DNA from: a virus
IMG/VR virus record: IMGVR_UViG_3300030104_000539
Location: 5,915 to 42,313 of that record
DNA: 36,399 nt
Strand: one strand, 5' to 3'
The position numbers and the translations under genes were made by a program. The notes under the pieces were generated by a model. It was not told the DNA's origin, did not search any database, and saw only the letters and a program-made list of their open reading frames with translations. Below, piece by piece: positions 21,845 through 24,598 of this stretch. The stretch's first letter is position 1, and each line of letters opens with the position of its first letter.

Positions 21845-21878
21845 TTAAAAGAGGGAACAAGCTATCCCTGTTCCCCCT
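21845..21878 (-). terminator. Hairpin terminator after the capsid genes
   Basis: Read on the minus strand: a 10-bp stem AGGGGGAACA / TGTTCCCTCT (one G-U pair), a 9-nt loop, then TTTT. It lies 13 nt beyond the decoration-gene stop and about 15 nt before the adaptor start. The T-run is short, so partial readthrough to the tail genes is expected, as with T7 Tphi downstream of gene 10. No T-run on the other side, so it works in one direction. Confidence 0.75.
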
Positions 21879-21890
21879 TACTTTGAAGAG

Positions 21891-22382
21891 TTACGCTAAT
21901 GTATCTCTGTCAACTTCATCAGCACCTAATGTGCCAGTATCGTCAACATCCATACATACTGCGAAACATCTGACCTTACCACCTGTGGTAGTTCCTGTCA
22001 TAGCTTGAAGCAAGATATCAATAGTATCTGCTGTTCCACCAACCATAACTGGAGTTTGACCTGCTTTAAAAGCATAGTCGCCTACAGACGCACCATCAAA
22101 ATCAAAACCATCTACAAAGTTATCAACATCACCACCTGTGACACCAAAGTCAAAAGCTGTATCTGTTGAAGTACCTGCGTGTGCTTCTGTCACTTCAAAT
22201 CCTGCTGTCATAACCATAGTATTAGCTGGAATTGTAAGTGCAGTAATCACATCAGCAGAAGCAAGTGCTGTACCTTTTGAGGTTGTAGCAGTTGCGAAGT
22301 TGATTTCATTTTGAATTATGTAAGGTTGTCTTCCTCTAGCTGAGTTTCCCCTAGCTGAATTTGCTAAAGCTACTGTTGCCAT
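21891..22382 (-). CDS. Probable capsid decoration/accessory protein
   Basis: 163 aa, acidic, Gly/Ala/Thr/Asp-rich and beta-type, lacking long charged helices. The N-terminus contains a duplicated NSARG, then RQPYIIQNEINFA. It lies 13 nt after the major capsid gene, behind AAGGGAG, and shares the same promoter-terminator unit. Small beta proteins here are commonly head decoration or capsid-stabilising proteins. No specific family recognised. Confidence 0.85.
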   Translation of the reverse strand: MATVALANSARGNSARGRQPYIIQNEINFATATTSKGTALASADVITALTIPANTMVMTAGFEVTEAHAGTSTDTAFDFGVTGGDVDNFVDGFDFDGASVGDYAFKAGQTPVMVGGTADTIDILLQAMTGTTTGGKVRCFAVCMDVDDTGTLGADEVDRDTLA

Positions 22383-22395
22383 GATTCAATCTCCC

Positions 22396-23472
22396 TTACG
22401 CTAAGTGATATCTGGCAGTTACTATCGCTTCAGGTCGTAGTATTTTTCTGCCATATAGATGCATACCACGAACAATGTCAGCAAAGCTGTCAGGGTCACG
22501 ATATGTTTCTGTCTTATTAATCTGCTCGGCTGTTGCTACAGCAGATTCATGTCCTGCGACAATTACTCCAAAGTTACTTGTACTGTTAGTACCTGTATTT
22601 GAAGAGCCTGTTCCTGCTGAAGGTAAGTTATTAGACATATACACTTTAAATCCATGTACATTATTTAATATTAAACCATTCTGCAATCCATCTCCACCAA
22701 AGTCTGCGTTGAAGAGTCTTGAATCTTCATCTTTTAGGACTTCAATAAATACAGGGTCAAGAACTAACCATCTACCATTAGTGTCAACATTTTGTTGGTC
22801 TAATAGTCTAGCCATTCTTGCAATCAAAGTTAATGGGTAAGTATCACCTGCTGCCGGTGTTGCATCAGTTGCACCCGGAAGTCTAGGTTGAATTGCAATA
22901 CCTGCATTTGCAGAACCTGCTGTTCCTGAACCATCAGTAAAGTCAGAAGCATCTAACTTCATTGTTGATAAAAGTTCGTCAGTTCCTGCTGTTGAAACAG
23001 CTACTGCACCATTAACAGTATCATTAACAGTATCTGCAGCACCATGTATCGCAGACTGTTTAAATCCTGACAAGTAACCAAGTACGTCTTGGTCAAACTG
23101 GTCAGCTAGTCTATAAGCAGCTCTATCACTTGCTAACTGTTGAAAGTTTACGTGTGAGTGAGCTTCTTCAATGTCATCAACCTTAAATGCAAAGTAGTTA
23201 GCTTTGTCAATAGTAAGGTTAAAGTCTTCGTCATCAAGGTCTTGTGGTGTAATAGTTGTACCACGAGCATACTCTTTGACTGTGATTTCAGGTTCTTTGA
23301 TAATCTTAACAGTATCGCCCATGTTAGCAATTTCACCAAAATAATCACTATTTGTAATCATTTCTGTGATTGATGCCTTGCGAAATGCAAGTTGCACCTG
23401 TTTGCTGTAAATAACAGGACTAAAGTTACCATTAGGTAGATTACCATAACCTGACGCTGTTGAAAATGCCAT
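22396..23472 (-). CDS. Major capsid protein
   Basis: 358 aa, typical for an HK97-fold coat protein. Features: PVIYSKQVQLAFRKASI near the start, a hydrophobic/charged E-loop-like region with VKIIKEPEITVKEY, a spine-type helix AAYRLADQFDQDVLGYL, WLVLDPVFIEVLKDE, GFKVYMSNNLP and a C-terminal MHLYGRKILRPEAIVTARY. It lies between scaffold and decoration genes in canonical order. A strong site (AGGGAGAAGTAAC before ATG) and a dedicated upstream promoter fit the high output a coat gene needs. Base composition is slightly less AT-rich than neighbours, as is common for highly expressed phage genes. Confidence 0.95.
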   Translation of the reverse strand: MAFSTASGYGNLPNGNFSPVIYSKQVQLAFRKASITEMITNSDYFGEIANMGDTVKIIKEPEITVKEYARGTTITPQDLDDEDFNLTIDKANYFAFKVDDIEEAHSHVNFQQLASDRAAYRLADQFDQDVLGYLSGFKQSAIHGAADTVNDTVNGAVAVSTAGTDELLSTMKLDASDFTDGSGTAGSANAGIAIQPRLPGATDATPAAGDTYPLTLIARMARLLDQQNVDTNGRWLVLDPVFIEVLKDEDSRLFNADFGGDGLQNGLILNNVHGFKVYMSNNLPSAGTGSSNTGTNSTSNFGVIVAGHESAVATAEQINKTETYRDPDSFADIVRGMHLYGRKILRPEAIVTARYHLA

Positions 23473-23649
23473 GTTACTTCTCCCTATGTTTAAGCATATT
23501 TTTACAGATGCAAACCTTTAATATTCTCTAGGGCTGATACTTATGCAGGTGCAAGTGTACATCTTGGGCTACATTTTCTCAGGTATTCTGTCAAACTATT
23601 ATGTTTGCGTTATATATAGTTATATTCATTTATAACCATATGTCAACAA
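23473..23649 (-). other. Intergenic leader of the capsid gene
   Basis: At 177 nt this is the largest non-coding gap in the window. Its upstream end carries the promoter at 23619-23646; the remaining about 150 nt are an untranslated leader ending in the capsid ribosome site. No ORF longer than about 10 codons and no strong stem were found in it, only a weak CAAG/CTTG pairing. Confidence 0.7.
23619..23646 (-). promoter_or_regulatory. Sigma70-type promoter upstream of the capsid gene
   Basis: On the minus strand, TTGACA (23646-23641) is a perfect -35 box. A 16-nt spacer leads to TATAAC (23624-23619), five of six matches to the -10 consensus. Continuing AT-rich sequence offers a second -10 choice. 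It starts 4 nt after the scaffold stop, in the only sizeable gap. In so AT-rich a genome a -10-like word is cheap, but a perfect -35 at this location is not. Confidence 0.68.
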
Positions 23650-24531
23650 TTATCTTGCTGAACCAGATAAATCGTAGATAAATTTACCACTTCTTATAGC
23701 ATCCATGATTTTATCTGCATTTCTTTCATATTCTTTTGCAGACATTTTTTCTACTTGTGATTCTTTAAGATAAGAGTTACTTTCATCACTTTGTGGTGTA
23801 CTCCTTCTAGTTTTTGCATTAACTGTTTTAGCAGCATCTTTATCACTCTTCTTCGATACCTTTTGGCTTTTTTCTCTATCTGATTTATAGAGGTCAATCG
23901 CCCTTGCTGCTGATTTTGCATCTTTATCATTTTCATATAATGCCTTTTGTACCCACTCAGGCTGTTCTTCAGCCCAATCGTGAAAATCATCACTATCTCG
24001 TATTTCACCAAAGTCAGGATGTATTCTTAACAACTCTGCTTCAGCCTTTTCCTTTGTTGCAGTATGTTGCATTTCATCAATCGCTTTCATTCTATCTTCT
24101 AATTCTTTTGCTCTTTCATTAGATTTCTTCATTGCGATTGTTTCAACGATACCTGCAATATCAGGGTATTCATTTGCCCATGCTTCAATATCTTCATCAG
24201 ACTTAGGCAATTTCATTTCTTTTTTTGTTGCTTCCGATAATTGACTTCTTAAAGTTTCTATTTCTTTTTTAAAATCTTCTGCTTGTTTTTGTTGGTGTCT
24301 TCGTAAGTCGGAGTAGCGTTTCTTAAAGGTCTTCTCCTCTGGACTCTCTTCATTATTGCTCTCTGTTTCGGAGTTATCGTCATTCTTTACTTCCCCTTTT
24401 TGTTCTTTTAGTAATTGTTTTAACTCCTCTTCATCTTTTTGTATCTTATCTTCTCTTGAATAAGGTTTAGACATAAATGCAGTTTTTTTAACAGGTTCTA
24501 CATTACCTTGTACTTGTGCTTGTTCAGCCAT
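23650..24531 (-). CDS. Capsid scaffolding protein
   Basis: 293 aa, extremely charged and helical: acidic disordered N-terminus with Asn/Glu runs, a long coiled coil (about 85-130, EDFKKEIETLRSQLSEA), a mid domain with HPDFGEIRDSDDFHDWAEEQPEW, and a basic KSDREKSQKVSKKSDKDA stretch towards the C-terminus that could bind coat protein. It directly precedes the major capsid gene, where podoviral scaffolds lie. No protease motif, so it is likely reused or removed by a separate route. AAGGA lies before the ATG. Confidence 0.9.
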   Translation of the reverse strand: MAEQAQVQGNVEPVKKTAFMSKPYSREDKIQKDEEELKQLLKEQKGEVKNDDNSETESNNEESPEEKTFKKRYSDLRRHQQKQAEDFKKEIETLRSQLSEATKKEMKLPKSDEDIEAWANEYPDIAGIVETIAMKKSNERAKELEDRMKAIDEMQHTATKEKAEAELLRIHPDFGEIRDSDDFHDWAEEQPEWVQKALYENDKDAKSAARAIDLYKSDREKSQKVSKKSDKDAAKTVNAKTRRSTPQSDESNSYLKESQVEKMSAKEYERNADKIMDAIRSGKFIYDLSGSAR

Positions 24532-24550
24532 TTTATTTTCCTTTTGTTAG

Positions 24551-24586
24551 GGCTATCCGTAGCCTATATTGGGGGGATAGGTAGCC
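24551..24586 (-). other. Interrupted hairpin between virion and scaffold genes
   Basis: Two nested stems, GGCTA/TAGCC outside and CCTAT/ATAGG inside, with a one-sided 7-nt bulge and a 9-nt loop, in the 67-nt gap before the scaffold gene. No T-run follows, so it is not an intrinsic terminator; an RNA-processing site or mRNA-stabilising stem is possible. Confidence 0.4.
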
Positions 24587-24598
24587 AACTATGTGAGT

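Follow-up and report, generated by a model that had tools for sequence, protein, structure and literature searches.

Host-type promoter sequence, closing hairpin and a shared RNA module around the capsid genes of an HMO-2011-type podovirus

Few virus groups of the sea are as abundant as the HMO-2011-type phages. No T7-type RNA polymerase has been found in them, and the excess of coat over other late proteins needs explaining. The locus described here raises the question of how such a phage sets the amounts of its capsid proteins. The window, a stretch of 36,399 nucleotides (36.4 kb) that is part of a 42.3-kb virus record, is from an HMO-2011-type podovirus; its coat protein is 78% identical to those of Puniceispirillum phage HMO-2011 and Roseobacter phage CRP-345. 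On the minus strand, a 768-aa gene is followed by a 293-aa gene (putative scaffold), the coat gene, a 163-aa gene (putative decoration), and the adaptor gene (Table 1). The name scaffold is positional and is also taken from homologs, which have the portal-side gene on one side and the coat gene on the other. Homologs of the putative scaffold occur across the group, including CHOED and MQM1 (E of about 1e-19 to 1e-30), and the protein itself has no Pfam match and no recognised domain. The putative decoration protein has no PHROG or Pfam match. The comparison set comprised 80 IMG/VR loci together with HMO-2011 and CRP-345, in which the gap between scaffold and coat genes was inspected.

Table 1. 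Coordinates of the genes, promoter elements, RNA elements and hairpin at the capsid locus (positions in the window)
Feature	Position	Strand	Remarks
Putative scaffold gene, 293 aa	23650..24531	-	ATG at 24531; matches phrog_13678 (unknown function)
-35 element TTGACA	23641..23646	-	Capsid promoter; kept in relatives
-10 element TATAAC (C at -7), then TATA	23619..23624	-	79/79 leaders
Major capsid protein (coat) gene, 358 aa	22396..23472	-	phrog_267 and phrog_283 major head protein; HMO-2011 coat 78% identical
Putative decoration gene, 163 aa	21891..22382	-	Positional name; homologs in relatives
Hairpin closing the capsid block, 13 bp, then TTAAAGG	21849..21879	-	-20 kcal/mol; between decoration and adaptor genes
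Adaptor gene	ATG 21831	-	Downstream of hairpin 21879-21849
Scaffold-leader RNA element	24546..24589	-	Top module match in window; minimum-energy fold exactly this double loop
Coat-leader outer closing helix	23510..23608	-	GCAAAC 23608-23603 with GUUUGC 23515-23510; minimum-energy fold
Coat-leader RNA core	23520..23598	-	Covariance model match 37.1 bits, E 5e-7
Core, 5' half	ACC 23584-23582; P2 5' strand 23582-23569; GCC 23569-23567; P3 CAAG 23566-23563	-	
Core, 3' half	P3 CUUG 23555-23552; ACC 23550-23548; P2 3' strand 23548-23534; GCC 23534-23532	-	
Small hairpin GCAU...AUGC around conserved AUCUGU, before ribosome site	23494..23511	-	Seen in sequence; visible in relatives

A sequence-only reading of this locus had likened the capsid block to T7 gene 10, which is framed by its own promoter and terminator, and as to layout the likeness is correct. 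In the T7 record the end of gp9 (22873) is followed by phi10 (22904), gene 10 (22967), Tphi (24210), and gene 11 (24228), the same order of scaffold, promoter, leader, coat, terminator or hairpin, and tail gene as here. In contrast to the T7 unit, the present one has a sigma70-type host promoter instead of a phage-polymerase promoter, a structured leader, a decoration gene within the unit, and weaker T-runs. A gene for a T7-type RNA polymerase (PF00940) was found in 0 of 22 records, with T7 as positive control giving an E of 1e-109; a T7-like cassette driven by a phage polymerase would be accompanied by such a gene. The conserved promoter before the coat gene together with the lack of PF00940 in these records agrees with the suggestion that a host-type promoter does the work without a phage polymerase. 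Promoter, hairpin, and layout stand as proposed, but the T7-like framing belongs to part of the group only, as both coat promoter and coat leader are missing in the pelagiphages. The further statement that gapless coupling is the rule among the other late genes holds only in part, since a leader of 67 nt (24598-24532) precedes the scaffold gene as well.

The candidate promoter, a perfect TTGACA and a TATAAC separated by a 16-nt spacer, begins 4 nt past the stop codon of the 293-aa gene, and the leader that had been estimated at roughly 150 nt measures 146 nt from the end of the -10 element to the coat ATG (23472). The sequence alone is not convincing for a promoter because promoter-like sites in a strand-wide scan of the window are fewer than in shuffles and because two matches to all 12 consensus positions occur elsewhere in the window, one of them inside a gene. 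A perfect 12/12 sigma70 consensus at 20136-20108 (-), within the gene at 21102-19567, is probably a chance match or else an internal late promoter. It is conservation that carries the case. TTGACA-N16-TATAACTATA lies between the putative scaffold and coat genes in all 79 of the relatives whose contigs reach the site, with one spacer of 17 nt; in nearly all of them TATA follows the -10 element and an A-rich tract precedes the promoter. In the divergent CRP-3 group of Roseobacter phages, changed hexamers stand at the same place in most members (TTGCAA, TTGATT, or TTGTAA with TATAAC, TATAAT, or TATACT, at a spacing of N17/18). In about 20 loci (L002, L008, L009, L010, L033, L036, L040, L041, and others) an extra gene of about 200 codons, with a conserved ...APFGPxMGY..., lies between scaffold and coat promoter, and there the promoter moves with the coat gene.

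Hexamers at 15-18 nt that are conserved in 79 of 79 relatives and keep their place in the CRP-3 group are as expected of sigma70 promoters, but the T at -7 is absent, being C in 79/79 of the HMO-2011 class. Such a C would be odd in E. coli. However, more than 60% of alphaproteobacterial sigma70 promoters are without the -7 T, and CarD has been proposed to compensate (PMC8407463). From this conservation, seen by comparison of relatives, we infer that the promoter is active. It is one of several, since further strong intergenic promoters are present in these genomes. A second TATAAC promoter (with TTGACA or TTGACG, 17 nt) is found at the end of the DNA polymerase gene, at 2059 (+) in the window and 5022 (+) in HMO-2011. 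A dyad spans -35 to +1, but we do not take it for an operator, as TATA-rich promoters give such inverted repeats anyway.

At the other end of the block, a hairpin of 13 bp with a 5-nt loop separates the putative decoration gene from the adaptor gene. Its stem is better than the 10-bp stem first described and its T-run poorer (TTTT, with two T inside the stem). Its z-score is -4.4, and none of 200 shuffles was as stable. A hairpin of about -11 to -22.5 kcal/mol, often with a GCAA or UUCG-type loop, directly follows the decoration gene, or the coat gene where there is none, in 81 of 81 distinct relatives. Both elements that had been singled out for a conservation check in relatives hold up (promoter 79/79, hairpin 81/81 distinct). 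While the stable G+C-rich hairpin of an intrinsic terminator is present throughout, complete termination is unproven because only 33 of the 81 have a good T-run, that is, at least 5 T in the next 8 nt; TTTT is found in 25 of the 81. Features of this kind are known, and we take the hairpin to terminate or attenuate with a strength that varies, its activity as a terminator being inferred. For example, the P22 coat gene is followed by an annotated stem-loop, GGGGCTGCGGCCCC then TTTCTTT, described as similar to those of HK97 and lambda. Common to all is a strong G+C hairpin directly after the capsid block; in contrast to them, the hairpin here usually follows a decoration gene and its T-run is often poor. 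The hairpin keeps its place even where the downstream gene differs, and it marks a mosaic boundary. Adaptor proteins are about 39 to 78% identical while coat proteins are near 80% (loci L002-L081), and other genes are inserted after the hairpin.

Between promoter and coat gene lies a conserved structured RNA that the sequence-only reading had missed. It is well supported by comparison and absent from Rfam: no match was found for the window at E<=1 (two chance-level matches elsewhere have E 3) or for five relatives at E<=3. The RNA consists of a helix P1, an internal loop (UAC/CC), a helix P2, the same loop inverted, and a P3 hairpin. The pattern ACC-N11-13-GCC-(hairpin)-ACC-N11-15-GCC is present in 90 of 92 pooled leaders. 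The two N stretches form P2, about one helical turn, and at both of its ends the last C of ACC pairs with the G of the far GCC. The internal loops, approximately (Y)UAC opposite CC, thus lie at the two ends of P2, one inverted relative to the other; P1 lies beyond the outer loop and P3 beyond the inner one. The sequences of the outer closing helix, GCAAAC...GTTTGC, are conserved in the HMO-2011 class.

The case for this fold is carried by comparison and covariation and not by energy because the window leader is not unusually stable (z -0.6); minimum-energy folds of the CRP-212 (z -4.2) and phiM6 (z -3.0) leaders do reproduce the architecture. When pairs of P2 were counted without any pairing requirement, the first two variable pairs beside the outer loop were canonical in 51 of 51 leaders, with 3-4 pair types, where the best of 500 shuffles reached 42. 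Beside the inner loop the first variable pair was likewise canonical in 51/51. In alignment A1, 85.5% of cells are paired as against 31-43% with slid partners, and covariation is 0.371 as against 0.177 when shuffled. Compensatory changes therefore exceed both the shuffled and the slid controls. An independent set agrees: under a strict test, the core was found in 42 of 52 distinct leaders of the CRP-3 group, mostly again with an 11-nt strand. The covariance model R1 has the coat-leader core as its only significant match in the window, matches at E 0.2-4 in coding regions of the window being taken as chance. On whole genomes it gives one significant match each, always just upstream of the coat gene, and it also matches phages outside its building set (phiM6, RHph_N3_13, CRP-235, ctYwJ313). 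R1 misses the ACTTTA/TAAAGT leader class, in which anchored patterns show the same architecture.

Several parts of the leader may have alternative pairings. The small GCAU/AUGC hairpin and the closing helix share GC and may be alternatives, and as the segment 23515-23510 overlaps that hairpin, a switch is possible. The GCAAAC at the start of the segment 23608-23586 (-) can pair either locally with GUUUG (GCAAACAUAAUAGUUUG) or far away with the GUUUGC at 23515-23510. A pseudoknot of ACGGAU with the conserved AUCUGU is also possible, and both of its sides hardly vary. In 28 of 49 coat leaders the loop module is present once more, in a 5' hairpin that the window lacks. In MW202701.1 (L087), an annotated HNH-type endonuclease gene (1702-2501) splits the coat leader between promoter and RNA core.

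The module is not confined to the coat leader. A first lead was a weak R1 match in the pelagiphage HTVC103P (E 0.41), which lies upstream of the scaffold gene rather than the coat gene; inspection of every scaffold leader then revealed the module at this place throughout. In the window, the scaffold leader reads GUUGG-[CUAC]-CUAUCC-[CC]-CC(AAUAUA)GG-[CUAC]-GGAUAG-[CC]-CUAAC, with two inverted CUAC/CC internal loops, and ends just before AAAAGGA and the scaffold ATG. A strict search found the module in 61 of 74 distinct scaffold leaders, where dinucleotide shuffles gave a mean of 0.95 and a maximum of 3. Pairs in the scaffold elements were counted by anchoring because an alignment of these elements mixes inner helices of 5 and 6 bp; in the anchored counts the first pairs had been selected for by the search. 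Such counting shows covariation in the inner helix, where canonical pairs stand at position 4 in 44/49 and at position 5 in 48/49, neither position having been demanded by the search. Between the end of the element and AAGGAG there are often 0-4 nt, and 10-15 nt to the start codon, a placement that would be the geometry of a translational operator, translational control itself being hypothetical. In whole-genome scans, few matches beyond chance lie away from the scaffold and coat genes.

All 27 distinct pelagiphage scaffold leaders carry the module, and in these phages the coat gap is 44-52 nt, with neither leader nor coat promoter. By eye, it can also be seen in the scaffold leaders of the gammaproteobacterial phages CHOED (UUAG-AUAC-CGUAC...GUACG-AC-CUAA) and MQM1 (UAG-ACAC-CGUAC...GUACG-CC-CUA). 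Hosts of phages with the module span SAR116, Roseobacter, SAR11, and Rhizobium and, by eye, Vibrio and Aeromonas. In HTVC103P (L101, 1328-1462), two CUAC/CC module hairpins lie side by side upstream of the scaffold gene and do not form an inverted double loop. Loop variants CUAC/CA and AUAC/AC are seen in the HTVC033P (L097) scaffold leader, CRP-738 (L092), and CHOED (L100). In some cases a change at the first base of one loop strand goes with a change at the first base of the other, as would be expected if the two were in contact.

To account for these features, we propose, with a probability of about one half, that the capsid genes form a transcription unit of the host RNA polymerase and that a shared RNA operator co-regulates translation of scaffold and coat, probably by capsid-assembly feedback. 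The coat and putative decoration genes would be a late transcription unit of their own, read from a host sigma70-type promoter behind the scaffold gene, with a strong hairpin at its end acting as terminator or attenuator. Host RNA polymerase would start about 140 nt upstream of the coat gene, and CarD may help because the -10 element ends in C. The coat leader would fold into a rod in which the two asymmetric loops, about YUAC opposite CC, face each other across P2. One trans-acting factor would bind both leaders and adjust scaffold and coat translation together, and the likeliest such factor, a hypothetical ligand, would be a phage capsid-assembly protein, either free scaffold or free coat. 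A common factor is suggested because the module is shared by both leaders and is absent as a family elsewhere, and translational control is favoured because the module adjoins the ribosome site of the scaffold gene. For the coat gene, whose start codon is about 50 nt downstream of the core, it is less easy to see how the ribosome site would be occluded directly. Coat genes that lack a promoter and leader of their own also lack the copy, which suggests that every mRNA with a separate start requires the element.

Features of known systems lend this proposal its precedents. Unassembled P22 scaffold limits its own synthesis. As in the mechanism proposed here, this feedback couples scaffold synthesis to head assembly, whereas here the coat leader carries the module too; the precedent is an analogy only because no obvious module lies upstream of P22 gene 8. 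Coat proteins of the RNA phages MS2 and Qbeta bind RNA hairpin operators that control translation, which resembles the proposed binding of a capsid protein to RNA controlling translation. In contrast to these operators, the present case concerns a DNA phage and an internal-loop module instead of a hairpin-loop operator, and its binder is hypothetical. The loops also bear a resemblance, and no more than that, to the RNA C-loop motif (PMC8983868), likewise an asymmetric internal loop in which C is often the first base of the longer strand.

The best-surviving alternative, although an unlikely one, is that only transcription matters: the level of capsid mRNA would be raised by promoter and terminator, as by phi10 and Tphi in T7, and the fold of the leader would do no more than shield the 5' end of an abundant mRNA. 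Both promoter and hairpin are conserved, and coat leaders are confined to genomes with a separate coat promoter, the short pelagiphage gaps being without one. However, a fold serving stability has no need of internal loops that are invariant and inverted about a strand of fixed length (11 nt), and the same loop stands before the scaffold gene, where in most members the 200 nt upstream hold no strong promoter (a score of at least 11/12 is reached in 5). The promoter alone is not established as a full explanation of the capsid unit. Because the scaffold leader carries the same module as the coat leader, stoichiometry is probably also set after transcription.

It is improbable that the two elements are instead processing sites, at which a nuclease such as RNase III, as between T7 genes, would mature the scaffold and coat mRNAs by cleavage. 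T7 RNase III substrates are typically rod-like helices interrupted by internal loops, and both elements here resemble them and lie between late genes. RNase III, however, needs no sequence-conserved CUAC/CC loop, and this loop is kept from alpha- to gammaproteobacterial phages with matched changes such as AUAC/AC. Somewhat less credible again is the binding of a host factor or small ligand, such as a ribosomal protein or a metabolite, that would time late translation; the range of hosts could be taken to mean shared host factors, but the module is found at scaffold and coat genes only in the scanned genomes, with few matches beyond chance elsewhere, and no Rfam riboswitch or ribosomal leader matches it. 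The least probable reading takes the coat leader for an antiterminator RNA of the HK022 put type, which would let host RNA polymerase read through the hairpin into the tail genes on some transcripts: like putL (PMC9378689), the leader is a structured RNA right behind a phage promoter, and a hairpin follows the capsid block, but put RNA comprises two separate, adjacent stem-loops, with a triplex, after early promoters, whereas here a single long interrupted rod with inverted loops occurs once per genome before the coat gene, and the same module recurs mid-operon before the scaffold start codon.

Returning to the proposed capsid-protein translational operator, the position of the module and its sharing by the two leaders are what would support it. 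Whereas the promoter and hairpin around the coat gene are known kinds of feature, the RNA family and its sharing have no counterpart in Rfam or the literature searched, and the papers searched on HMO-2011 and RCA phages make no mention of promoters or RNA leaders. We suggest, more tentatively than the mechanism as a whole, that the inverted YUAC/CC loop pair in scaffold and coat leaders may represent a phage RNA operator of a new class, the target of a capsid-assembly protein through which scaffold and coat translation would be under feedback, and conserved in podoviruses of alpha- and gammaproteobacteria with a P22-type coat.

The structured RNA adds to Rfam a family that it is missing, and its covariance model marks capsid operons in metagenomes. 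The sigma70-type promoter with C at -7, kept in every relative examined, is a natural test case for CarD-assisted late transcription. The RNA module before both scaffold and coat genes makes assembly feedback in a DNA phage a specific hypothesis that can be tested quickly, and it is through this module, shared by the two leaders, that the virus probably balances its building blocks.
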